A DNA stretch of 58,053 nt from Ruficoccus amylovorans. GTDB lineage: Bacteria > Verrucomicrobiota > Verrucomicrobiia > Opitutales > Cerasicoccaceae. The translations under genes and the position numbers were made by a program. Of the stretch, positions 1-58,053 are shown one piece after another (position 1 is the stretch's first letter; every line of letters begins with the position of its first letter). The notes beneath the pieces were generated by a model, which worked only from the letters and a program-made list of their open reading frames with translations, ran no database searches and had not been told where the DNA came from. Location: contig NZ_JACHVB010000042.1 of the NCBI RefSeq assembly GCF_014230085.1, forward strand, positions 1-58,053, given 5' to 3'.

Positions 1-165
1 AGACATTCTCCACAATCGGACTCCCCTACTAACACACAAGACTCCGCCCTCCTGTGTCGCCCGGCGTCAGCCATGCGGCCCTCCAACCAAACCGTGCCCC
101 CCCTCCCCCATCGGGGTGACACAGACTTGCGGCAGGCCCGGAACGCCGGAGCCGAAGAATGTGGG

Positions 166-1575
166 TCAGCCTCGCCCGAACCTCTCCCGGGCATGCTGAC
201 GCTGCCAGTAACCATTCTTCGGAAGCTCGATCCCCCTCGCAAGACAACGCTTGCGCACCGCGTTGTCGGAGACCCCCAACTCCGCCCCGAGTGCCCGCAG
301 AGGCTTCTCCCACACCAGCCGAGACAACACCTTGTCTGTGGGCCAGTCATCAAAGCCCTGACCGGCGGGCAGCTCGACCTCGACCCCCTCCAGAGACTCC
401 GGTGTCAGGGACCAGTAAGCCTCCACCTCCTGAGGGTCTTCAACCACATCCCGGTAATGGCTGTCGATCATCGCACGGGAGGTCCCGTTGTTGAAGGCCG
501 TGTGAGCCTCGTCCCGGTCACGCTCCAACTGGTAACTGATCGAAGTGTGGCGGATGATGTCCTGAACCCATACCTCGGCACCCGTAGCCTTTTTGAGAGA
601 CTTCATTTTGTAGGTGCTTCCCGCAGGTAAACCGTCAAAGGGATACTTGGATAACCAGTTTTTTAGGATATCAGGCAAGGGTACACGACGGTTCATCTTG
701 CGACGAAGCTTGCCCCCGGTAACAACGATGAACTCGTCCCTGATGTTGCTCGGCTTCAGATCTTCAATCTCACTCGGACGCAACCCGGCAAAGATTCCAA
801 TCGCCACCACCGGAGCCATGATTCCCTCCTGATAGAGCAAGGCTGCCCGTAGCAGCCTCCGGACCTCCTCAAACCTCAGGATCCTCACCGGCGAGGAGTC
901 CGCAGGCAGGGAGTCCAGGCGTGAACAAGGGTTCTCAAGACAGTGATGCCGCCGTACGCACCAGTTGAAAAAGGTGTTCAGACCCCGCCGATATGTCTTC
1001 TGGGTGTTGAGGTTCTTATACTTACTCAGCAACGACTCCAGTTCCCGAAGACCGATCCGGTGGACCAGAGTGTTCGGGTCAAGCCGTTGCAGAAGCTTCA
1101 GAGAGGACTCATAATGAGAGAGAGTCTTGGGACGGGCATGCTCCTTCCCCCCGAGAAAACGGGTAATGGCGGTCGTGACAGACACCTCCTCCAACTCGGG
1201 ACGGTAATGCTTGAGCAGATACTCCACCGCCTGATCCAGCGACAGGTGCATCCGGGCACTAACGGTTTCCTCCAGTTTGAGGTAATGGGAGACGATTTCG
1301 CCCAGAGCCCTTCCCTTGGTCAGGCCGCGGGCTACTTCGGCATCACTGAGTTCCTCCCGGCTCAGTGATGTTCGCTGAAGTTGATAGTCCGCCACCTGCC
1401 CACTGGCCTCATTTTCAATCTTGGCCCGATATTCGTAGGCGTCTGCCTTGATCTTAAACCGCTTACGCTCACGCCTACCATCGGGCCAGTACCCATCAAG
1501 CCGCCACAACTTGCGCCCCGATGCTGCTGTGATAAGCGTAACCCTGAAACGTTCATCTTTTTTGGGGCGAGCCAT
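166..1575 (-). CDS. Tyrosine recombinase (site-specific integrase) with C-terminal HTH-like tail
   Basis: 469-residue phage/island-type integrase that would catalyse excision and integration of the element at the left edge of the window. The catalytic core spans about residues 230-380: box I arginine in AGLRPSEIE (R266), box II in IIRHTSISY (R342-H343, with the usual first His of HxxR replaced by Asp), and the nucleophile in SHYRDV (Y374). Residues 160-225 form the core-binding SAM-like region. Residues 415-465 are an extra tail with a helix-turn-helix look (LGVSDNAVRKRC then NGYW). The ATG at 1575 gives the basic start MARPKK. The gene reads away from the tRNA-Arg 3' fragment about 100 bp to its right, the standard int/att arrangement. 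The family is clear; whether the protein is active is not known. Confidence 0.93.
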   Translation of the reverse strand: MARPKKDERFRVTLITAASGRKLWRLDGYWPDGRRERKRFKIKADAYEYRAKIENEASGQVADYQLQRTSLSREELSDAEVARGLTKGRALGEIVSHYLKLEETVSARMHLSLDQAVEYLLKHYRPELEEVSVTTAITRFLGGKEHARPKTLSHYESSLKLLQRLDPNTLVHRIGLRELESLLSKYKNLNTQKTYRRGLNTFFNWCVRRHHCLENPCSRLDSLPADSSPVRILRFEEVRRLLRAALLYQEGIMAPVVAIGIFAGLRPSEIEDLKPSNIRDEFIVVTGGKLRRKMNRRVPLPDILKNWLSKYPFDGLPAGSTYKMKSLKKATGAEVWVQDIIRHTSISYQLERDRDEAHTAFNNGTSRAMIDSHYRDVVEDPQEVEAYWSLTPESLEGVEVELPAGQGFDDWPTDKVLSRLVWEKPLRALGAELGVSDNAVRKRCLARGIELPKNGYWQRQHARERFGRG

Positions 1576-1673
1576 ACCCGAGTTTTAGGCATTATTTTAG
1601 GCAACAGTCAAACCATGAGCTACGTATAAATTCATTAAACATTTATAAACAATGAAATAAGAATAAAAATAAA

Positions 1674-1722
1674 CTGACTACGGATCAGGAGGTTAGGGGT
1701 TCGACTCCCTTCGGGTGTGCCA
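1674..1722 (+). other. Attachment-site remnant: 3' half of tRNA-Arg(ACG)
   Basis: The sequence folds as the 3' half of a tRNA. The anticodon stem is CTGA/TCAG around loop CTACGGA (anticodon ACG), followed by variable loop AGGTT, T-arm AGGGG-TTCGACT-CCCTT, the 3' acceptor strand CGGGTGT, discriminator G and an encoded CCA. Immediately upstream the DNA is AT-rich and carries no D-arm or 5' acceptor strand, so this is not a working tRNA gene. With an integrase next to it, this is best read as the att direct repeat left at the distal end of an element inserted in tRNA-Arg. The intact tRNA should lie left of the window. Confidence 0.85.
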
Positions 1723-2204
1723 TTTGAGAAATCCGCTTTTCCGTCAGCGGTTTACCTGTTTTCACAACAGCCCTGCTCGTGCGAGTAAGAATAAGCTAAG
1801 CATCAGTCACCTGGCGTCACAGAGAACTCTCGAACCGACCCTTAGCTTGCGGCATTACTTGAATACCACGGAAACAAGGAGTACTCGGCTCTCATTTGAC
1901 CGCCCAACTGCGGTCTGGCTGGAGTATTTGGAGATGCCCTCTACTAGCACTTTATAGCAAAATTCAGTATTTTCTCAAAAGTTTCTCATGACCACCCCAA
2001 GCACTCTCCCCGCAATGTTGCACGGGGCTTGGCAGCAAGCGTTTCGACCAGCTTAAACGCTGGACTCAGAAGAAAAGCACTGGGATTAACTGCTACAGTC
2101 CCTTAAAAAAACCTCTGTGGAAAAATACGCCCCGAAGCGTAGAGCCATCGGGACATCACTACGATTTTATCTTAAAATTCTCTAGCGCGATACCACACTG
2201 GCTC
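1723..2204. other. Intergenic region beyond the left att site
   Basis: I see no convincing gene here. Just after the tRNA fragment a CCGCT/AGCGG hairpin (1733-1750) followed by a short T-rich stretch may be the old tRNA-Arg terminator, which would fit backbone beginning at 1723. Short open frames in the rest show no recognisable protein signal and no ribosome binding site. Confidence 0.5.
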
Positions 2205-3801: not shown

Positions 3802-5283
3802 TTAAGGGATAGATTCGACAAAGGGCGAAGCCGGCAGTCCGGCATCATTGACAAGTTCCATGGCCGGAAATCCTTTCCAGGCGTAGCGGACGGAGACCGG
3901 AGCAGGCACCTCGCGGGAAGTCACGACGACCTGATCGCCCTCAATCCGGGCCTGCGCCGGGTGGAATATCTGGTCGGCCCCGGCCAGCTCAAAATCGGCC
4001 AGTTCGGGGCCGTTCCTGCCAAGCATGGTGGCGGAACCGGGCTCAAAGGTCACGATGGCCGCTCCGTCTTCAAGCGCCACCCCAACCGGCTCCGGCCCAT
4101 GCCAGGCGATATCGACGCCGTAAACTTGCGCGAGTGCCGTACGGGCCAGGCGCTCCCCGACCGGACGTTTGTTGCGCGGATGGATGTCAAATGCTTCACC
4201 GACATCCGCCGCCACAGCCAGACCGTTGTTGGGCTCACGCGCCACCTGTCGCTGGACTTCGCGGATGGCGGGGTAGTTCTCATTGACGGTCTTAATGTCA
4301 TCGGACGACTTCCCCTTCAACCCGGCCAATTGCACAATCAGGAAAGGCATGTCCGGCTCTTGCCAGCCTTTGCGCCAATCGGCAATCAAATCCCGCAGGA
4401 AGCGGTCGTAGTGCCAATACTTCCACGAGTCGGACTCGCCCTGGTACCAGATGACCCCCTTGACGGGAAAAGGAAACAGCGGGGCGATCATCCCGTTGTA
4501 ATAACCGGCGGGCTGGCGCTTCTCCGGCTCGCGGGGGCGGGCCGCAGCCGGATCGCTCTTGCGGGCCTGCTCGTACTCGGCCAGCACTTGCGGCCAGGCG
4601 GCCTTTTCCCTCTCGTAGCGCTTGAAATAAGCCTCCGAATCCGGGTTGCTCTCCAGCACTTCGCGGCTGGTCCAGTTGTTGGCCAGCGTGCCGCCTACCG
4701 TGGACATAATCAAGCCAATCGGCACATCCGTTCGGCGCTGAAGCATGTCACCGAAATAGTAACCGACCGCGCTGAAATTGGACACCGAATATTTATTGGC
4801 CGGCAGCCAACCGCTCCCCTGCACGGACGCCTGTGGCTCGTCGGAAGCAGCCCGCGAAACCACGAACAGGCGCAAGTCCGGGTTGTTGGCGGCGGCGATG
4901 GCTTTCTTTCCATCGGTGGCCCCGGAGAGCGCAAAGTACATGTTAGACTGCCCCGCACAGACCCAGACATCGCCGAACAGCAGATCGGAAACAATCACCA
5001 CCTGCTCGCCCGAGCGAACCGTCAACCGGTAAGGGCCCCCCGCCGCCATCGCGGGTAATTCCACCGACCAGCCACCGTCCTCGCCGACCGTGGCCTGACC
5101 CGTCGCTTCGCCCAGCTCGACCGCCACCTGTGCTCCCGGATCGCCCTGGCCCCACAGGTGGACAGGCCGCTCGCGCTGCAAGACGGCTCCGTCGCTGATG
5201 AGGGAGTTCACGCTCAGGCCCGCCCACGCGACAATCGCATTCAGGCAAAACAGGCCGGTCAGAATAGAGGTACGTAAGATCAT
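3802..5283 (-). CDS. Sialate O-acetylesterase-like SGNH/SASA esterase, secreted
   Basis: 493 residues from the ATG at 5283, which overlaps the preceding TGA (ATGA) and opens a clear signal peptide (MILRTSILTGLFCLNAIVAW). The nucleophile block GQSNM lies near residue 111, GVIWYQGESD is the second conserved block, and DIHPRNK near residue 364 supplies the Asp/His part of the triad. The family removes acetyl groups from sialic acids or acetylated polysaccharides in the periplasm or outside the cell. The neighbouring ManA-like isomerase, sugar isomerase and symporter suggest deacetylation of an imported glycan; the true substrate is unknown. An upstream in-frame ATG would give a 513-residue form without a clean signal peptide. 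Confidence 0.87.
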   Translation of the reverse strand: MILRTSILTGLFCLNAIVAWAGLSVNSLISDGAVLQRERPVHLWGQGDPGAQVAVELGEATGQATVGEDGGWSVELPAMAAGGPYRLTVRSGEQVVIVSDLLFGDVWVCAGQSNMYFALSGATDGKKAIAAANNPDLRLFVVSRAASDEPQASVQGSGWLPANKYSVSNFSAVGYYFGDMLQRRTDVPIGLIMSTVGGTLANNWTSREVLESNPDSEAYFKRYEREKAAWPQVLAEYEQARKSDPAAARPREPEKRQPAGYYNGMIAPLFPFPVKGVIWYQGESDSWKYWHYDRFLRDLIADWRKGWQEPDMPFLIVQLAGLKGKSSDDIKTVNENYPAIREVQRQVAREPNNGLAVAADVGEAFDIHPRNKRPVGERLARTALAQVYGVDIAWHGPEPVGVALEDGAAIVTFEPGSATMLGRNGPELADFELAGADQIFHPAQARIEGDQVVVTSREVPAPVSVRYAWKGFPAMELVNDAGLPASPFVESIP

Positions 5284-6407
5284 GATAACAAAGATTCGGT
5301 TTCGGGCGCGGACTGCGGCGGGTAACATTCGAGCAGTTCGCACTCGTCTTCGGTTTGGAGCGATAGCTGACCGATCCCGTGCGGAATGAGCACGCGGTCA
5401 TATTGCTTGAGCGTCGCTGTCCAGCCACCGGGGCCGCCCAGGCGGCATGCGCCCTTGAGCACAATGGCGATACAAAACGACTTAACCTCGCGGCGACACT
5501 CACCGTGCCAGGAGATTTTCCACACCTGAAAGCAATCCGTCTGCGCCTCCCCGATAAGGCGTTCCCGGCGACACCGGCCATCAGCAGCCATCATCTGAGG
5601 CTGGCAGACATTTCGCGCCCGCACCTCGTCCAGACTGCGCGGAGCCAAATCAAACACATCCAGTCCGAAGTCCAGCCCCCGCCCCATGAAACGGTCTTTC
5701 TCTGGCAGCACGTAGCCGCCGCGGGCGTACTCGAAACGCACCACCCAGTCCGAAGGCTCCAGAATTTCCACCAAGAGCACCCCGGCCCCGAGCGCGTGCG
5801 GCGTACCGCCGGGAACGATAACGACATCCCCCGGCTTCACGCTCAGCGGGTCGAAGCACGCCGTCAGGCCCGTGATGTCCTGCTCTTCGATCATGCGCTT
5901 GAGCGCCTCCCGTTCCGGTGGCCACTGGAAGCCGACGTAAACCTCGCCGGTTTCCTGCCCCGGCCGCAGCGCGAGCACATAGTAGGCCTCGAACTTGCCG
6001 TAAGGGGAATCCAGCCGTTCCCGAGAAAACGCCTTCGTCGGGTGGCACTGAAAGTGCAGGCGCTCGGCCGAATCGATAAATTTCACCAGAAACTCCGGTT
6101 GCGCACCGAAGCGCTCCACATGCCCGCGCCCGAAGAAATACTCCGGCTCCGCGCGGTAAAGCTCATCCAGCCGGTGATGCGTGCCGTCAAGCTCCACGCT
6201 GGAAATCCCCTCCCCGGCCCGCGCATGCTCACGGGGGTTGACAGCCTCCACCGCCGAGCCGATCCAGTCCTCCGGGTAGTGCCCATCCTCGCCACCCGGC
6301 TTGCCCTCGATGGCGTCGAGCAGGCTTCCGCCCAGGTACGAACGCCAAACCCGGTTGGCCGACAGGACCAGCGGACGATTGCAAAGATGGGGAATATTCA
6401 GCAACAT
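5280..6407 (-). CDS. manA: Class I mannose-6-phosphate isomerase-like protein
   Basis: 375 residues of the cupin-type phosphomannose isomerase family, which interconverts mannose-6-phosphate and fructose-6-phosphate with zinc. Key segments are FQCHPTKAF near residue 120 (Gln/His zinc ligands) and PGGTPHALGAG near residue 200 (His ligand), followed by a C-terminal cupin half. It is first in the minus-strand cluster, and its TGA overlaps the esterase ATG by four bases. Divergence from classical ManA leaves open isomerisation of another phosphorylated sugar. The start MLLNIPHL lies 62 bp from the divergent symporter start. Confidence 0.85.
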   Translation of the reverse strand: MLLNIPHLCNRPLVLSANRVWRSYLGGSLLDAIEGKPGGEDGHYPEDWIGSAVEAVNPREHARAGEGISSVELDGTHHRLDELYRAEPEYFFGRGHVERFGAQPEFLVKFIDSAERLHFQCHPTKAFSRERLDSPYGKFEAYYVLALRPGQETGEVYVGFQWPPEREALKRMIEEQDITGLTACFDPLSVKPGDVVIVPGGTPHALGAGVLLVEILEPSDWVVRFEYARGGYVLPEKDRFMGRGLDFGLDVFDLAPRSLDEVRARNVCQPQMMAADGRCRRERLIGEAQTDCFQVWKISWHGECRREVKSFCIAIVLKGACRLGGPGGWTATLKQYDRVLIPHGIGQLSLQTEDECELLECYPPQSAPETESLLS

Positions 6408-8620: not shown

Positions 8621-9481
8621 TCAGGCGTTTTGCTCCATCGCGCGGCGAGCGCGTTTGCGCAGGACAAAGAGGAAAGCCAGCACGCCGGCCATACCCGCGT
8701 AGAAACTGGGCTCGGGAACCGCCGAGAGATTGGTCACGACCAGATTATCAAGGGTGTAGTCCAAACCGACCGAATTCCCGAAGGAAACGACACCTGTACG
8801 GCCCAGGTTATTATCCCCGGTCCCCAATGCATAGAGCCCATCCGAGCGAATCAACACACCGTCCAGGTAAACGGCGAAAGAATTTGCTGCCAGGGTGATC
8901 GTGCTGCCGCTCGGGTTCATGTAGTCGAGCGTCGAGGTGTCGCTGTCGTTGATGTAGATGTCCACCGCGTAGGCGCTGCCGACGACGAGCTTCTCCGCAG
9001 CGGAGCTGTTACCACTGGCCCCGCGCACGTAAAACGAGCCATCCCCGTACCAGCGAACCTCGTAGAGGATATTCCCATTGCTGTTGAGCGTGCTGCCAGT
9101 GCTGTCGCTGTACAGTCCGGTGCTGAATCGGTAATAAAAACTCGACTCCATGTCAGCCTCCCAAGCCAGATCATAGGAGATGTGGACCGCGCTTAACTGA
9201 TTGGCCGTGCTGCTGACGAAGTTGTTCTCGTAAGCAAGGGCGCTGCTGGCGTCGTTATCGTAGAGCTTGAGCCCGTTACCGACGCCACCACCGGCACCGT
9301 TAGCGGCACCTGTCACGACCTCGGCGTACAGGTCGGGGCTGTTGCTCGTCGGGCGGACCGCAGTGGCCGTCGGCTGCTCGCCCACGGTCTGCGAACTGAA
9401 GTTTTCGCTGAAGACAACCTGCCCATAAGTGAGAGAGGACAGGCTGAACGCTGTGAGAAGGCTGAGTTGGGTTATATTCAT
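8621..9481 (-). CDS. PEP-CTERM sorting domain protein, secreted
   Basis: 286 residues with an N-terminal signal peptide (MNITQLSLLTAFSLSSLTYG) and a C-terminal sorting signal: AVPEPS, a hydrophobic helix (about residues 262-276), then the basic tail RKRARRA. PEP-CTERM proteins are processed by an exosortase and displayed at the cell surface or matrix; no exosortase is encoded in this window. The middle is Ser/Asn/Gly/Tyr-rich and predicted beta-rich, like a concanavalin-type sandwich. It has its own terminator and opens the polysaccharide locus, suggesting a surface or glycan-binding role. The precise function is unknown. Confidence 0.88.
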   Translation of the reverse strand: MNITQLSLLTAFSLSSLTYGQVVFSENFSSQTVGEQPTATAVRPTSNSPDLYAEVVTGAANGAGGGVGNGLKLYDNDASSALAYENNFVSSTANQLSAVHISYDLAWEADMESSFYYRFSTGLYSDSTGSTLNSNGNILYEVRWYGDGSFYVRGASGNSSAAEKLVVGSAYAVDIYINDSDTSTLDYMNPSGSTITLAANSFAVYLDGVLIRSDGLYALGTGDNNLGRTGVVSFGNSVGLDYTLDNLVVTNLSAVPEPSFYAGMAGVLAFLFVLRKRARRAMEQNA

Positions 9482-50934: not shown

Positions 50935-51336
50935 ATGTTTTACGATCTTAGCTAGGTCAGCCCCAACGAAAAAGTAGAAGCCAAACTGAAAGAGGTCCGT
51001 GCCGATCAATCCCGTCCCGCCCATTGCATCTCATCCCATCCGCACTCGCAGGCAGAAGACCTGCTGCTGATCGATGAAAACGGCGAATGCTGGCAGATGC
51101 CTTGGTCGTGCCTCAAGTATAGTTCGCTCAATAAGCGCGGAGAGCATTTTCACCTCTCCTTTGAGACCCATGAGGTCTGGCTCTACGGCAAATACCTGGC
51201 GGAACTGTCTGAACCGCTGGCCAAGCGCCAAATCGCCTCCATCCAAGCCTTCGGCAGTGATAACGAACACCGGACCCGTTCGGACCAGCCCTTTATCGAA
51301 CGGATCACTGTCTCCGAGAAAGGAAAGCTCGAATAA
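50935..51336 (+). pseudogene. Nonsense-interrupted gene of unknown function
   Basis: From the ATG at 50935 the frame reads MFYDLS, then TAG (50953-50955), then an uninterrupted frame of 126 codons: VSPNEKVEAKLKEVRADQSR, later LLLIDENGECWQMPWSCLKY, HFHLSFETHEVWLYGKYLAE and ITVSEKGKLE. The protein-like composition throughout suggests one ancestral gene of about 133 codons with an early stop. An internal ATG at 51097 could still give 79 residues. I do not recognise the family. It lies just outside the right att site. Confidence 0.5.
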
Positions 51337-51378
51337 GCGCGGTATGACCATCTCCAAAAACAAAACCGCCAAACAAAA

Positions 51379-51406
51379 ATCCCGCAAGTCGCTGGATTTA
51401 CGGGAT
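51379..51406 (-). terminator. Terminator of the original tRNA-Phe gene
   Basis: On the minus strand, six bases after the encoded CCA of the tRNA-Phe fragment, ATCCCG and CGGGAT form a perfect 6-bp stem with a 16-base loop, followed by TTTTTG. It is a good intrinsic terminator and shows that sequence left of the fragment is the tRNA's native downstream DNA. Confidence 0.75.
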
Positions 51407-51412
51407 CTAAAG

Positions 51413-51465
51413 TGGTGGCCAGAACGTGAATCGAACACGTGACACAAGGATTTTCAGTCCTCTGC
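51413..51465 (-). other. Attachment-site remnant: 3' half of tRNA-Phe(GAA)
   Basis: Read on the minus strand: anticodon stem GAGGA/TCCTT around CTGAAAA (anticodon GAA), variable loop GTGTC, T-arm ACGTG-TTCGATT-CACGT, acceptor strand TCTGGCC, discriminator A and encoded CCA. To its right the DNA turns AT-rich and has no D-arm or 5' acceptor strand, so it is not a functional tRNA. The adjacent rightward integrase makes this an att direct repeat of an element inserted into tRNA-Phe. The intact tRNA should lie beyond the right edge. Confidence 0.88.
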
Positions 51466-51642
51466 TTTTATGTTTTTAATTGTGGTCAAGTTTGGCTTTT
51501 AAGCATTTACTATTAAATGGTTATAAGTATTTTATGGATTTACAAAAACCAACATTGACCACACTTAAAATCCATTGAAAAGCCAAAAAATGGCACAGTT
51601 ATGGCACAGTGATTAACCCAAGGACTTCACGAAAGGCTGAAA

Positions 51643-52935
51643 ATGGCTCTCTCTAAAACTCATCAGGATTACTGGATGCACCGCATTCAAAAAAGAACCT
51701 ATGAACGGCAGGACGGCAGCACCGAGACCATCAACGAATGGCAGGTGCGAGTCAGCCATAACTGTCGCCGAGAGTGGTTCTCCCTGGGCTCGAATAACAA
51801 AATCTTCGCCGCTAAGCGGGCCGCTGCCATTTACCAGAGCCTCAAGATCAACGGCTGGGACGAAACCATTCGCCAGTTCAAAGGAGAAAAGTACGAGAAG
51901 GTTAAGGTCATCTCCCTTGGGGAATACCTAAAGGCCGTCGAGAACCGTGCCAACCTCAACCCCAAAACCTTTACCACCTATTGCCGGAAGCTGCGCACCC
52001 TCGTGGCAGATATCAAAGGCATCCCCCAAACCAAGGAGCGGTACGACCACTTCCACAAGCACCACCTCAAATGGCGTGAAGCGGTCGATAAGACCCCGCT
52101 GGGCTACCTGGCCGCCGACCGCATCCGCAAGTGGCAGAAATCGGAAATCGCCAAGGCCCAGCATGACCCGGTCAAGATTCGCAAAGCGGAGCACACCGCG
52201 AATTCGATTGTCCGCAACGCACGCTCGCTGTTCAGCCCCAAGATCACCGGGCTGCTCAAGGAAATGGAGCTCCCCAATCCCCTGCCCTTTGCCGATGTCG
52301 AGATGCTGAAGTCGTCGTCCATGCGCTACCGTAGTCAAATCGATGTCGGCGAACTGGTCACCGCCGCCGAAACAGAGCTTCCCCCAAAATACCCCGAGCA
52401 ATACAAGATATTCCTCCTGAGCCTCTTCGCCGGGCTCCGCCGCAACGAAATCGACAAACTGCTCTGGGAGTCAGTGGATGCGGTCCGGGGAGAAATCGTC
52501 ATCGCTCCGCATACGTTCTTTTCCGTCAAAACCGAGACCTCCATCGGGGCCGTCCCCGTCGATCCGGGCCTCTTGAAGATTCTGGAGACATTCAAGGAGA
52601 AGGCCACCGGCTCCTTTGTCATCGAGTCCAAAGTCCCCCCGAAAATGGACAAGGACTACGCCCACTACCGGGCGAATGCGCACTTCCGCAAGCTAAGCGC
52701 CTGGCTCCGGTCCAAAGGCATCACCGCCCAATCCCCCATTCACACTCTCCGCAAAGAATACGGACGCCTCCTGACGGAAAAATTCGGCATCTACGCCGCC
52801 AGCAAGGCCCTCCGCCACGCCGGCATCCAGATCACTGCCGCCCACTACGCCGACGACACCCGCCGAAACATCATCTCCATCAACGATGTCCACGCCACTC
52901 CCGCCCCCTCTCCGCAAATGAACGACTCAGCCTGA
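51643..52935 (+). CDS. Tyrosine recombinase (site-specific integrase) of the right-hand element
   Basis: 430 residues. The core-binding region is about 90-210; the catalytic domain (about 230-405) has box I FAGLRRNEID (R266), box II IHTLRKEYG (H367, R370), ALRHAGI (H392) and the nucleophile AAHYADD (Y402), so every catalytic residue is present. The N-terminal 60 residues resemble an arm-site-binding sheet (YERQDGS...WQVRVS). It starts about 180 bp from the tRNA-Phe fragment and reads into the element. It is unrelated in detail to the left integrase, so the two elements are distinct. Confidence 0.94.
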   Translation: MALSKTHQDYWMHRIQKRTYERQDGSTETINEWQVRVSHNCRREWFSLGSNNKIFAAKRAAAIYQSLKINGWDETIRQFKGEKYEKVKVISLGEYLKAVENRANLNPKTFTTYCRKLRTLVADIKGIPQTKERYDHFHKHHLKWREAVDKTPLGYLAADRIRKWQKSEIAKAQHDPVKIRKAEHTANSIVRNARSLFSPKITGLLKEMELPNPLPFADVEMLKSSSMRYRSQIDVGELVTAAETELPPKYPEQYKIFLLSLFAGLRRNEIDKLLWESVDAVRGEIVIAPHTFFSVKTETSIGAVPVDPGLLKILETFKEKATGSFVIESKVPPKMDKDYAHYRANAHFRKLSAWLRSKGITAQSPIHTLRKEYGRLLTEKFGIYAASKALRHAGIQITAAHYADDTRRNIISINDVHATPAPSPQMNDSA

Positions 52936-52976: not shown

Positions 52977-53981
52977 GTGCCATTTTCCCGCATAGAGTAC
53001 GTCCACGGTGGGGTACACCTCCCCCGTCTGGGTCTGTGGCTCGACCCCTCCCGTCCCAAAGCGGGAGCGGTCTTTGTCAGCCACGCTCACAGCGACCATA
53101 CCGCCGCCCACCGTTCCGTCATTCTCAGTGCCCCGACCGCGCACCTCATGCGCCTGCGTCTCGGGGGCGATCGCACAGAGCACTGTCTGAGCTTCGGGAA
53201 GGCAACCGAGTTTCACGCCGGAGAGATACCGTTCCGTCTCACCTTGCTCCCTGCCGGGCACATCCTCGGCAGCAGCATGGCCTATATCGAGGCCGGGGGC
53301 CAGAGCCTGCTCTATACGGGCGACTTCAAGCTGCGCTCCGGGCTCTCGTGCGAGCCCTGCCAGCTACGCCCGGCAGATATCCTCATCATGGAGACGACCT
53401 TTGGCCGTCCGCACTACCGACTTCCAGACCCGACGCAAACCTGGCAAGCATTGGCCGACTTTTGCCACGAAACGCTGGCGGCGGGGGCCACCCCCGTCCT
53501 GATGGCCTACTCTCTGGGCAAGACGCAGGAAGTGCTCGCCGGGCTTAAAACGACCGGGTTGACCTTTGCCCTGCACGAGCAGGCCCACCTCATGACACAG
53601 GCCTACGAGGCCCACGGTGTGAGCTTCCCCGCCTATGCGTGCTTTGACGGCAGTGAGTTGGACGGAAAGGTTCTTATCTGGCCCCCGGCCGCGTTGCGCT
53701 CAAAGCTCCTGAAGGGCTTGCCCCGCCTGCGCACGGCAGCCATCACCGGCTGGGCTATGGACGCGTCCTGCCGGTTCCGCATGAAAGCCGATACCGCCTT
53801 TGCCCTCAGCGATCACGCCGACTATCCAGAGTTGCTGGAAGCCGTCAAGCAGGTCAACCCAAGCCAAGTCTGGACCCTCCACGGCAGCGCCGCCGACTTC
53901 GCCGACAGCCTCCGCCAACACGGCTACCAAGCCGCCCCCCTCAGCCAGCCCGACCAGCTCTCCCTCATTCTCGGCTGCTAG
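52977..53981 (+). CDS. Ligase-associated DNA exonuclease (MBL-fold, Artemis/CPSF-like)
   Basis: 334 residues beginning with GTG. Metallo-beta-lactamase motifs are VSHAHSDHTA (HxHxDH), LLPAGHILGS (His), LLYTGDFKL (Asp) and LSDHADYPEL with LHGS near the end, the beta-CASP-like arrangement of the bacterial ligase-associated exonuclease family (about 335 residues). These normally work in DNA end processing with a co-encoded ATP-dependent ligase and an Lhr-type helicase. Here neither partner is present in the window and the gene follows an integrase by 41 bp. It may be cargo of the right-hand element or part of a set that continues elsewhere. Confidence 0.87.
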   Translation: MPFSRIEYVHGGVHLPRLGLWLDPSRPKAGAVFVSHAHSDHTAAHRSVILSAPTAHLMRLRLGGDRTEHCLSFGKATEFHAGEIPFRLTLLPAGHILGSSMAYIEAGGQSLLYTGDFKLRSGLSCEPCQLRPADILIMETTFGRPHYRLPDPTQTWQALADFCHETLAAGATPVLMAYSLGKTQEVLAGLKTTGLTFALHEQAHLMTQAYEAHGVSFPAYACFDGSELDGKVLIWPPAALRSKLLKGLPRLRTAAITGWAMDASCRFRMKADTAFALSDHADYPELLEAVKQVNPSQVWTLHGSAADFADSLRQHGYQAAPLSQPDQLSLILGC

Positions 53982-54061: not shown

Positions 54062-56962
54062 TTAAAGGAGGTTGCAGCTTGAGGCGGAAAAAAACTGCCG
54101 GTTGTCATCCCACGGGATGCCCCAGATTTCATTCTCCTCTTTTCTGAGTAAAACCATGCCGGTATCATCCCAGTCCTCCAGATTGAAACTGCGCTGAACC
54201 TGCCAGCTCAGGCCGGGGGTATTGTTGTCAGGGTTGACGGCGACAGTTGCGTAATCGACCCCGGCGATGCTCACTCGGCCCTTGTCGCTCGACGCTGTGG
54301 GAGCTGACAACCGAGCCTTTTTGCCGTTCTCGTAGTCGAGGATGTCTGCTTGTCCGTTGTTATCTGCATCTGCCCAGAGCGCGGCATCGTGGTCTGTCGG
54401 CAAGTAGCCATACTTTTGCATGTACCAGTCCTCAAACGCATTAAAGGTGAAAACAGAGACGTCATTATCGGTCGTCACATAGAGAGTGCCGCCGAAATAT
54501 GCTAGTCCGTCTGAGCCATAATACGATTGAGGCTCGGCATCCTCTCTGAGTAAAATAGATGCCAGCGTCCAATCGCCATCGCTGTCATGTCGATAGGCAG
54601 AGACACTCCCCGCATAGCGGTTGGCCAACGTGCTGTATCTGTACGTTGTGAACATCCAGCCATCTTGGGCGATCAAAGGTTGGCCACCACCGTACAGTTG
54701 CTGGCGCAACACAGGAAGGCCCACAGGCGGGATGTCGTAGATATACATGCGCCCATGTGCATTCCAGTACGGATTAGAAACGATAAGTTGTCCGTCTGAA
54801 TAGGCCACATACTTGCCGAAGGCAGAAGTCGGATAGGACGTGTAAGGGTCAGGAGGGAGCAAACCACCATCAAGATTCCATACACCTTCATCTGATAGCT
54901 CGTAAATGTACACAGCTCCGTCATTAATTGCAGTTCCATCCCCGTTTTCCTGCATAGGAGCACCCACTGCCAGCTTGTTCCCGTAGAATGCCAGCGTGGA
55001 GCCGAGGTTGTCAAAACCACCGACAGAGGTGATACTCTGCTGGAGTGTCCAGCCCTCGCCATCCCCATAGGCGTACAGTTCGAGCGCATCACGCCAGGCC
55101 GACATCTCCGTCACGTAGTGGCGATAGATGACCGCCAGCCAGTTATCGTGGATCGCAATTGGGATATTGCCACTTCCCAGGTAGTAGTACCCCTCGCTGG
55201 AGATTAAAGTCTGTACCAGCGCCCAGGAGCCGTCCTCCTGACGCTCGTACACAGCCATAAAGGGCAAGCCCTGTGGGCTGTTTCGATCATTGTGCCCAAC
55301 GCCAAGAAACAGCCGGTCCCCGTCGCAGTAACCACGCCCACCAAACTGACAGCCAGCAGGCAGGTTGTCCTCCGTAAAGCTTGTCACCAGTTCCAATGAA
55401 CTGTCCTCAAGCACCCGATACTCGTAGATGCTAAGCTCACGGATACTGTCCCCCGGAGCGTAGGGGATTACAATCAAGTTTCCAGTCTCGCTGAAGAAGT
55501 GGTTCTCGGAGGTGAAATCCGTTCCTGCCAAGACTGGGATGAGATCAAGCTCTTTCTCAGGCTGACGGATAACGCCTGGAGCGTAGGGAGACTCGATCGC
55601 CAGGGGGACGGTCTCGCTGCTGGAAAGGACTCCATCATTCGCGCTAATCTGTATCTCATGGACGCCACGATCCTTATAATAGGGCGACGAGGCTCGAAGA
55701 TCCCCCTGCCCATCGGCATCGCAAGTAAACGAAAAGTACGCGGGCATCCCCTCCGCACGAAGGACACAGGTGTCCCCATCAGGGTCGCTCACCGTCACAT
55801 ACGTGTAAAAATACTCTCCGACGGTTGCGCTCATGGGAGGGGCTCGAAAGGGGGAAGTGTTAATGATCGGAGCTTCATTAATGTCCGTCTGCTCCAGGCT
55901 GACACTGCCGAGTTCGAAGCCAAGCTCGATGCTCTCTGAAAGCTCATTCACAATCTGCCAGGAGATGGTCGATCCAGCCTCGACGAAAAGCTGAAAACGA
56001 CCTGGCTCGTAAAGTGTATTGGGGTCGAAGCTCAGGTACTCTTCCCCGTTTACAAGCAGAGCCATCGTGGTGGCAGGGGCCTCTGGGGTACTCGGAGCGT
56101 CCAGTGCCTGCGGATGTTCCAGCGACCACCAGAACTCCAGATGCCCGCTTTCGGATACTGTGGCAGTCAGCGTGGTAGAGCTTTCTGGCGAAAGCGTGGG
56201 GATCGCCATGCTGCGTCCATCGGGGAATTGCCACTGGTCGTCGTGATAACTCCAGTCGAATGAATTATCCAGAGACCACTCGAGGGCGTTATCATCGCCC
56301 AGATAATGACTGAGGGCCGCTGGGGTGGCCTCTCCCGCTACGATCTGAAGCCCACTGATAAAGGCATCGTCGTTTCGAACATTTAGGAATATTTGTACGG
56401 TGTCAGCATGGCTGACCTCCACCTTGATACGGGCGTATGATTCGCCCTCGACATATTGCTCCGACCAAACGCCGCTGATCGATTTGGGTTGAGGGGCGCT
56501 ATTGCTTGTAGCGATAGCAACTTCACTTGCCTTCGGGTAGTCCTGCCGACCAACCATGTAAACATAAAAGGTGTAGGTGCCCTCTGGGAGCCCGGCGACA
56601 GCAAGGGTCATTGTTGAGGTACCCGTGCACAGGTAGTCTCCGAGCAGCGGCTGATCTTCCTTGGAAAAGGGTTGTGCGCCGGGATTGACATCCGAGACGG
56701 CCTTCGAGAATGAAAAAGAGACATTAACCGTGTCGGCGGTAACTGCTCCGCTATTGTCTGCGAGGCTTTCGACGGACTCGCCCGCACGCAGTGATGAGTA
56801 TCTATTCCAATAACCACTGAGTGGTGCAGCAGCAGCATAGGCAGGCTGCGGGGTTTGTCTTGACGTGCCAAAATCGATGTTAATGGACCACGGATCGCTA
56901 GCAGCGTAGCTACTAAGGGCATAGGCTAACAATAACAGCAAAAGGGATAATAAGCGTTTCAT
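54062..56962 (-). CDS. Large secreted multi-domain protein with beta-propeller-like repeats
   Basis: About 966 residues from the ATG at 56962, which opens a strong signal peptide (MKRLLSLLLLLLAYALSSYA). Regions in order: an N-terminal beta-sandwich (about 25-220, LAVAGLPEGTYTFYVYMVG), a second sandwich (to about 360), a cadherin/He_PIG-like Ig module (PIINTSPF to VPLAIES), then about 400 residues of FG-GAP/integrin-like blades (GNKLAVGAPMQENGDG; DGQLIVSNPYW). A dockerin-like Asp/Asn segment (ADADNNGQADILDYENG) and a terminal sandwich ending the protein follow. Likely surface or secreted, possibly adhesive or sugar-binding; no catalytic motif is seen. An IS element lies 86 bp upstream of the start. 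Confidence 0.8.
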   Translation of the reverse strand: MKRLLSLLLLLLAYALSSYAASDPWSINIDFGTSRQTPQPAYAAAAPLSGYWNRYSSLRAGESVESLADNSGAVTADTVNVSFSFSKAVSDVNPGAQPFSKEDQPLLGDYLCTGTSTMTLAVAGLPEGTYTFYVYMVGRQDYPKASEVAIATSNSAPQPKSISGVWSEQYVEGESYARIKVEVSHADTVQIFLNVRNDDAFISGLQIVAGEATPAALSHYLGDDNALEWSLDNSFDWSYHDDQWQFPDGRSMAIPTLSPESSTTLTATVSESGHLEFWWSLEHPQALDAPSTPEAPATTMALLVNGEEYLSFDPNTLYEPGRFQLFVEAGSTISWQIVNELSESIELGFELGSVSLEQTDINEAPIINTSPFRAPPMSATVGEYFYTYVTVSDPDGDTCVLRAEGMPAYFSFTCDADGQGDLRASSPYYKDRGVHEIQISANDGVLSSSETVPLAIESPYAPGVIRQPEKELDLIPVLAGTDFTSENHFFSETGNLIVIPYAPGDSIRELSIYEYRVLEDSSLELVTSFTEDNLPAGCQFGGRGYCDGDRLFLGVGHNDRNSPQGLPFMAVYERQEDGSWALVQTLISSEGYYYLGSGNIPIAIHDNWLAVIYRHYVTEMSAWRDALELYAYGDGEGWTLQQSITSVGGFDNLGSTLAFYGNKLAVGAPMQENGDGTAINDGAVYIYELSDEGVWNLDGGLLPPDPYTSYPTSAFGKYVAYSDGQLIVSNPYWNAHGRMYIYDIPPVGLPVLRQQLYGGGQPLIAQDGWMFTTYRYSTLANRYAGSVSAYRHDSDGDWTLASILLREDAEPQSYYGSDGLAYFGGTLYVTTDNDVSVFTFNAFEDWYMQKYGYLPTDHDAALWADADNNGQADILDYENGKKARLSAPTASSDKGRVSIAGVDYATVAVNPDNNTPGLSWQVQRSFNLEDWDDTGMVLLRKEENEIWGIPWDDNRQFFSASSCNLL

Positions 56963-57048
56963 GGAGATGGTGGGCCAACAAATAGGACTGTACTTCCGAG
57001 AAATCAAGGCAGAACCTTGCATGGGCACATGCGCTCCAATTCTCATTA

Positions 57049-58048
57049 GAGCGTTTCAAATAAAACTGTATCCGCAATGGGTAAACCAGCCCCGGACATC
57101 GTTGGTGGATACGTCCGCCAATGCGTTAGCGATGGCGTCGAGTAAATGGGGATAGTTTCGTGCCTGGATCTTTCGCAGGATTGCCTTGAGCTTACTCCAC
57201 ATCATTTCGATGGGATTGAGGTCCGGGGAGTAAGCCGGCAGGAAGCGGACTTGGGCCTTGGCCTGCCGGATCAGATTGAGGGTGTCCTCGTTTTTATGGG
57301 CGCGCAAGTTGTCCATGATGACGATGTCTCCGGGACGCAGGGAGGGGACGAGGATCTGGAGCACATAGGCTTGAAAGACCTCGGTGTTAGCCGCGCCCTC
57401 AACACTCATGCAGGCGGTGGTGCCGTCCAGGCGCCCGAGGAGATCATCGTGGTGGTGTGCCAGTGTCCATGCGGAGCATGGCAGAGCAGACGTTGGCGCC
57501 CGAGGGGCGCGACCCCGTAACCGGGTCAGGTTGGTCTTGGCCGCCGACTCGTCGATGAACACGAGCCGCGCCGGGTCGAGGCCGCCTTGGCTGCGCTTCC
57601 AGCGGCGGCGGGCTTGCGCGATATCGGGGCGGTTTTGCTCGGAGGCATGGAGCGTCTTTTTTTATATGTCAGCCCCAGCTTGTCCAGAGCCCAATGGATC
57701 GCTCCGACCGTATAGCCTAAGTCCAGACGCTCCTTGATTTCGGCCAAGGTCAAGTCCGGATGCTGCCCCACCAATGCCTTCAGTTCCGGCCCATGATCAG
57801 GCAATAAGCGTGCCTTGCGGCCCGAAAACCGATGCCGGGCTTCGATCAGGCCAGTCCGGCGCCGTTGCTGGATCAGCTTCTTCACCATCCCCAACGACAC
57901 CCGGAAACGCTGAGCCACCTCGGCCTGCGTGCACTTGCCTTCATCGTAGCTCTCCACGAGCCGCCGTCTCAAATCCAACGATAGCGTTTTCATCACTACC
58001 CACTACCAGATCCCAGAGAAAATAGCTACAGTTTTATTTGAAACGCTC
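57049..58048. mobile_element. Complete IS630-family insertion sequence (1000 bp)
   Basis: The ends are perfect inverted repeats of 22 bp beginning GAGCGTTTCAAATAAAACTG (left 57049-57070, right 58027-58048 as reverse complement), each flanked outside by TA (57047-57048 and 58049-58050). TA target duplication is the hallmark of IS630/Tc1-mariner-type elements. It contains one transposase in two overlapping frames on the minus strand. Being complete with matched ends suggests recent insertion. Confidence 0.93.
57056..57996 (-). CDS. IS630-family transposase made by -1 frameshifting
   Basis: Frame 1 (57996 to 57526, 156 residues) begins MMKTLSLDLRRRLVESYDEG and supplies the helix-turn-helix DNA-binding half. 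Frame 2 (to 57056) supplies the DDE nuclease: VFIDESAAKTN (first Asp), DIVIMDNLRAHK (second Asp) and AYSPDLNPIEMMWSKLK (Glu). The switch occurs at a run of seven A (minus strand, 57657-57663, AAAAAAAG), a classic -1 slippery site; after slipping, the frame reads KTLHASEQNRPDIAQARRRW, which is the family consensus. The stop lies inside the left terminal repeat. The DDE triad is intact, so an active transposase is plausible. Confidence 0.9.
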
Positions 58049-58053
58049 TAAAT

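Follow-up and report, generated by a model that had tools for sequence, protein, structure and literature searches.

The closest described systems are integrative islands and integrases that use tRNA genes. In the part of the Islander account cited here (PMC4383910), island ends are marked by a restored tRNA gene and a displaced fragment, and anticodon-centred crossovers are common. A family of archaeal tyrosine integrases is described, in the part of the report drawn on here (PMC8371274), as having diversified over many tRNA targets and as suicidal, the gene being broken on integration. Closer in kinship, a conjugative-type element shared by two congeners (G001 and G003) and a related element in another genus (G007) have the same tRNA target, the same end layout and a related integrase (34-44% identity by segment) as the locus described below; the G001 element spans 54.4 kb and that of G007 68.7 kb, their arm repeat is a different one, and a scan of G001 alone showed conjugation genes as well as an AcrB-family pump.

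Our locus lies at the right edge of a 58,053-base stretch, here called the window, which is the whole of contig C42 in an assembly of 64 contigs and 97.8% completeness. It shares with the Islander islands a tyrosine integrase, a restored tRNA and displaced 3' fragment at the ends, and a crossover around the anticodon loop, but its ends lie on two contigs and its integrase gene adjoins the displaced fragment. Like the archaeal enzymes, its integrase belongs to one family spread over many tRNA targets, whereas the window's integrase gene stays intact; and unlike the G001 type, its element encodes a relaxase but no type IV secretion gene among the ORFs scanned. In our reading, which we hold at a probability of about 0.92, an integrative element has recombined into the chromosomal tRNA-Phe(GAA) gene, and the right edge is its integrase-proximal (attR) end. 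The features concerned are the following.

51373 to 51408, minus strand: tRNA-Phe intrinsic terminator hairpin on the host side (RNA fold), homologous to the G002 tRNA-Phe flank
51413 to 51466, minus strand: orphan 3' part of tRNA-Phe(GAA), tRNA nucleotides 23-76 including CCA, on the attR core side
51467 to 51584, no strand: AT-rich P arm between core and arm repeat, 27.6% GC over 51469-51584
51585 to 51614, plus strand: putative 30-bp arm-type repeat holding a period-11 tandem repeat, with an exact copy at C34:197271-197300
51643 to 52935, plus strand: intact tyrosine integrase of 430 aa (PF00589, catalytic-type residues)
52977 to 53981, plus strand: MBL-fold exonuclease-like gene (nearest NCBIfam model TIGR04122, at 225.8 bits below its cut-off of 325), either cargo or a displaced neighbour gene
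54062 to 57046, minus strand: large ORF matching FG-GAP at the Pfam cut-off, probably cargo
57046 to 58053, minus strand: IS630-family insertion sequence at the contig break, identical to an IS at the C34 end

The split tRNA-Phe gene and its partner end

Comparison with the intact gene called by ARAGORN identified window 51413-51466 as nucleotides 23-76 of tRNA-Phe(GAA) on the minus strand, CCA included, with 54 of 54 tRNA bases kept and the break in the 5' part of the gene. No complete tRNA gene was called in the window, and an Rfam scan of the window, L006, L010 and L063 returned two intact tRNAs and nothing else. The adjoining terminator is a strong hairpin followed by T5 (z -4.3; 0 of 200 shuffles equally good); a simple terminator consensus scan missed the hairpins, which were recovered by folding. 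Judged by alignment, this terminator is of the native type, because the alignment between the window and the tRNA-Phe 3' flank of the congener G002 starts in the tRNA, spans the terminator and runs on for about 21 nt. The "native" G002 flank could itself once have been carried by an element; it continues into sequence resembling the arm region of the G001 type. An earlier note, made from the window's letters, had described a minus-strand orphan 3' half of tRNA-Phe(GAA) with its native terminator on the left, and the identity to nucleotides 23-76 and the G002 alignment bear out both points. The foreign AT-rich DNA it described is present at 51469-51584, but the description was overstated, since only about 116 bp have this composition.

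Rightward of the orphan half come 118 bp of mostly AT-rich DNA, the 30-bp repeat and the integrase gene, in that order; overall, GC content is 56.2% in the window part of the element and 61.4% in the window's middle. The integrase, which the note had correctly called intact, matches PF00589 above cut-off, and R266/R267, K296, H367, R370, H392 and Y402 are invariant in an alignment of 16 sequences (the window integrase and 15 relatives, a subset of the loci in the family scan below). This set of R, K, H-x-x-R, H and Y we take to be the expected catalytic residues. Close matches were absent both from plasmid records (one record, 30%) and from phage records (five records, 25-28%), and the nearest solved structures, Int protein 6en0 and its relatives, match the catalytic part only (best E 5e-8).

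The intact tRNA-Phe(GAA) lies at C34:197131-197206 (L006 9132-9207; ARAGORN). A genome search with window 51300-51800 returned a common repeat of 92 bp at 96% identity (C42:51375-51466 against C34:197153-197244), whose C34 copy is the 3' part and terminator of the intact gene and whose 54-nt tRNA part is the 53-base repeat of the earlier note. The only further match to the tRNA-Phe stretch (E <= 0.001; 79%) lies at a tRNA-Thr, and the genome count of tRNA-Phe pieces is one intact and one orphan. A second C34 match, exact over 30 bp (C34:197271-197300), lies just beyond the terminator. Read in the tRNA sense, one copy of this repeat precedes the core on the integrase side and the other follows it on the C34 side, in the same orientation; because that is the arrangement expected of attP, the integrase most likely uses the repeat as its arm-type binding site. 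The tandem motif at the core of the repeat occurs at three sites in 4.5 Mb with up to two mismatches (reversed control, 0), the third being beside tRNA-Thr(TGT) on contig C12.

C34 and the window end in one IS630, identical over 859 bp and entered by C34 from the other side, with compatible orientations. The IS has its left flank on three contig ends (C42, C63 and C4) and its right flank on three (C34, C25 and C22), with the same first bases past the IS in C34, C25 and C22; these counts come from scoring 40 of 77 first-look candidates, and further IS ends may exist. With at least three possible right-hand partners, the IS alone leaves C34 as one choice among at least three. The orphan half and integrase could accordingly belong to a different tRNA-Phe element from the one ending on C34, in a tandem array or beside a partly lost element, and tandem tRNA islands are known (Islander, in the part cited; PMC4383910). 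We nevertheless consider this improbable: the genome holds a single orphan tRNA-Phe half and only one close integrase of the family, the second-best match within the genome being only 26% identical, and the exact 30-bp repeat stands on both contigs. Together with the split tRNA, these observations favour C34 as the partner of C42, and we infer direct contiguity between two contigs that are unjoined in the assembly. The intact tRNA-Phe with a matching repeat that the earlier note expected to the right is thus present on C34, the far end lying in the same IS630; neither of the findings that it held would tell against it, an intact tRNA-Phe at the left or a missing repeat at the right, was made. 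Within the IS itself, the transposase at 57046-58053 is encoded in two overlapping frames, as if read through by frameshifting, and elsewhere (G000 C4:16058-16116 and 54814-55766) an IS630 copy is split by about 38.7 kb with a 4-base overlap, as if by insertion.

Under integration into tRNA-Phe, the circular attP would carry its own copy of the tRNA 3' part and terminator, and the integrase (51643-52935) would cross attP with the chromosomal tRNA-Phe gene at the anticodon arm. The element's 3' part would then complete the tRNA at the other end, now on C34, while the host's own 3' part would be displaced to the far side of the element, as the orphan half in the window; the host DNA left of that half would be the former downstream neighbour of tRNA-Phe.

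The site in relatives and the host side

The same arrangement recurs in related genomes. An RluA-like gene lies upstream of the C34 tRNA-Phe and also upstream of tRNA-Phe in all three congeners (G001, G002 and G003). A single contig of G001 holds, in this order, an orphan half (3277559-3277620), an integrase related to that of the window (3277820-3279115; segments 34% and 44% identical) and, beginning 54.4 kb away, an intact tRNA-Phe (3331965-3332040). Ten ORFs scanned in this element gave TrwC, TrwB/TraG coupling-protein, TraG P-loop and TrbI families and an AcrB-family pump; because of the TrwC, TrwB/TraG, TraG P-loop and TrbI matches, the element is most likely conjugative. G003 has matching ends on two contigs, 98.9% identical to those of G001 over 7.1 kb and 99.9% over 19.3 kb (ends compared), and the partial RluA proteins of the two genomes differ by about 18%; that two species of one genus carry so nearly identical an element, probably conjugative, at the same tRNA-Phe indicates recent transfer. 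Near its integrase this element (L063, L065 and L096-L098) encodes a TIR-domain protein and the AcrB-family pump. In G007, orphan and intact tRNA-Phe are 68.7 kb apart, and the integrase end is closely related (95.8% identity over 7.0 kb). Among nine relatives searched, a second tRNA-Phe piece was found only in G001, G003 and G007; G002 gave one match, and the second match in G004 is short (39 bases).

These relatives also bear on the exchange itself. The orphan halves of G001 and G003 differ in their T arms, while the intact genes of both carry one identical T arm; this is a direct sign that the 3' part was swapped, and it places the crossover on the 5' side of the T arm. In the window's genome the orphan and intact copies are identical over the 54 tRNA bases, so such a swap leaves no visible trace.

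Two further readings of the junction can be set against this layout. Partial tRNA genes are known in prokaryotes (in the part of PMC9897764 cited here), and the tRNA half might be a simple degenerate or duplicated tRNA that never took part in integration; yet 54 of 54 tRNA bases and the terminator are kept, the break lies in the 5' part, the piece adjoins an integrase in a layout seen at 18 of 22 related loci, and the single-contig layout of G001 speaks strongly against this reading, which we regard as very improbable. Just as slender is the chance that the junction arose from a contig chimaera or misbinning, as an assembly of 64 contigs at 97.8% completeness might suggest: assemblies of other species show junctions of this type, and a congener has a matching host-side flank.

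On the host side of the integrated element, G005, from another genus of the family, has a single, apparently unoccupied tRNA-Phe match. From about 0.4 kb downstream of it lie relatives of the window's nitrite reductase/flavoprotein/porin genes (40.8-45.9 kb), at 56-75% identity and with order and orientation kept. Between the porin gene and tRNA-Phe of G005 (L108 about 5237-5500) a frame resembles, with a weak tblastn match, the start of the window gene at about 46 kb, which would fit the loss of part of a moa region beside tRNA-Phe in G005. Of 10 genomes searched for MoaA, 8 gave a match, the G003 copy being only 55% identical, and G001 and G002 gave none; with two of the three congeners lacking a match, the window's middle does not count as universal core. 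Downstream gene content differs between G001 and G003, and neither matches the window there. G003 had offered a candidate native downstream neighbour, an exonuclease-like gene followed by O-acetylhomoserine sulfhydrylase, which we rejected: the sulfhydrylase occurs in G000, G001 and G002 without its G003 neighbours.

The earlier note had also cast the window as backbone between two independent elements with different integrases and different tRNA targets. The term backbone agrees with the window-like genes beside tRNA-Phe in G005, but sits less well with MoaA, not found in two of three congeners. The two integrases do differ, with a non-significant BLASTP match (31% over 68 aa, E 0.043), and both match the broad integrase family phrog_1; the targets differ as well, the left-edge orphan half being tRNA-Arg(ACG) and not Phe. 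At that left edge (window 1-1728), an integrase occupies 166-1575 on the minus strand and the orphan tRNA-Arg(ACG) half about 1674-1728. Contig C35 carries an intact tRNA-Arg(ACG) near 63465 and a further matching piece at C35:2366, close to another integrase; because of these, more than one element may use tRNA-Arg(ACG).

Content and class of the element

The element most likely consists of C34:197207-210965, the IS630 and window 57045-51467, about 20 kb if joined directly. Its C34 part encodes an HTH/P63C protein, a NikA/MobC-like protein, a relaxase (PF03432), a large serine recombinase with Resolvase and Recombinase domains (L010 1333-3000; C34:201732-203399) and an ArdC-type anti-restriction protein; this part may be composite, and a nested element may be marked by the serine recombinase. 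Immediately before the ardC-like gene, about 220 bp (L010 about 9107-9326; C34:209506-209725) are 72% identical to a stretch of the G001 and G003 element. Type IV secretion families were absent from the 10 C34-part ORFs scanned. Because it has a NikA/MobC-like protein and a relaxase, the element is probably mobilizable rather than self-transmissible.

Measured against integrative and mobilizable elements, the PF03432 relaxase and the NikA-like protein are both on C34, and the 10 C34-part ORFs hold no type IV secretion gene, assuming that the two contigs are contiguous. Measured against Islander islands, a tyrosine integrase (PF00589, with the expected catalytic residues) lies inside the island, and an intact tRNA is accompanied by a 3' fragment of the same tRNA; as to a common orientation on one replicon at 2-200 kb, two contigs with orientations compatible via IS630 are found here, and a single-contig span of 54.4 kb in G001. 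A PHROGs scan of 10 proteins (nine from the element and the left-edge integrase) gave integrase, regulator, anti-restriction and unknown-function families, with no structural phage genes among the nine element proteins, and PADLOC gave one weak match for nine proteins. The exonuclease-like gene lies inside the element here and just outside the orphan half in G003 (L098 8649-9653, 72% identity), while in G001 (L117) only its first 91 residues were matched, far from tRNA-Phe; its differing position in the window and in G003 is a point against the integration reading.

An integrase family with changing tRNA targets

We scanned genome contigs for the integrase family with a five-integrase alignment and one peptide pattern, confirming 22 of 80 candidate stretches, a sample rather than a census in which at least L140, L147 and L154 are genomes used in building the query. 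All 22 loci come from Verrucomicrobiota lineages (phylum taken from the record for 20, from titles for L157 and L158). An orphan tRNA 3' half lies upstream of the integrase gene in 18 of the 22, with its T loop 173-276 bp before the match start, and ARAGORN called no complete tRNA at these 18. The four others are L141 (190 bp of upstream sequence present), L157 (2 bp), L149, and L158, in which the match begins inside the protein. The five-pair T-arm motif occurred in 3 of 975 control stretches of 200 bp, a rate to be read against the 700 bp searched upstream of each integrase.

Nine tRNA targets were read by eye: Phe, Thr(CGT), Arg(ACG), Arg(TCG), Lys, CAT (Met or CAT-type Ile), Leu, Asn and Tyr. 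A tree of 22 integrases, 20 of them with a target and 5 of its 19 inner branches well supported, requires 10 changes of target, 8 of which nine kinds would demand on any tree; near relatives keep their target.

A period-11 tandem repeat (at least 8 bases, at most 160 bp upstream of the match start) was found at 16 of 24 loci, compared with 7 of 1205 distant stretches, and seven other periods gave 0-2 of the 24; these loci comprise 21 of the 22 contig loci (the truncated L157 excluded), the window, G022 and G007, several of them close and hence non-independent relatives. A stricter test (9 bases, periods 10-12) was passed by 12 of 24 loci, by 0.3% of simulated sequences and by 0.7% of distant stretches. 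Viral contigs yielded eight further integrase relatives. Three have an orphan half read as tRNA-Lys and are near-identical to one another, one (L169) has a complete tRNA-Lys, and four have no tRNA piece, including L165 with only 180 bp upstream. Because only one of the eight carries the period-11 repeat, the repeat is weakened as a rule of the family.

The tRNA-Thr site on C12 offers a possible view of a target change. There an intact tRNA-Thr(TGT) is followed by a terminator and arm sequence of the type seen at the tRNA-Phe element (L007 3119-3290), and from the T arm through the arm repeat the site is 82% identical to the C34 side, while the tRNAs themselves differ. A genome search found neither an orphan tRNA-Thr half to complete this site nor a second close integrase; the site may be what is left of a sister element that had another target, or the window integrase may once have used it. 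Tentatively, and at slightly less than even odds, we propose an integrase family, confined among named genomes to Verrucomicrobiota, whose recurrent end layout (orphan 3' half, about 100 bp or more, period-11 arm repeat, integrase gene) is kept through many changes of tRNA target; the arms shared by the tRNA-Phe and tRNA-Thr(TGT) sites would be a snapshot of such a switch, with the core swapped and the arms kept. A literature search by titles and opening abstracts, with partial coverage, found no paper describing this family.

A tRNA-integrated island is of a known and ordinary kind, and the family's layout and target changes are a modest addition to it. For the window, the result marks where mobile DNA begins; it also predicts the att sites of an element that is probably mobilizable, in a phylum about which little is known. 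The survey brings together related integrases with different tRNA targets and their neighbouring repeats, a set that could be used to test how such targets change.
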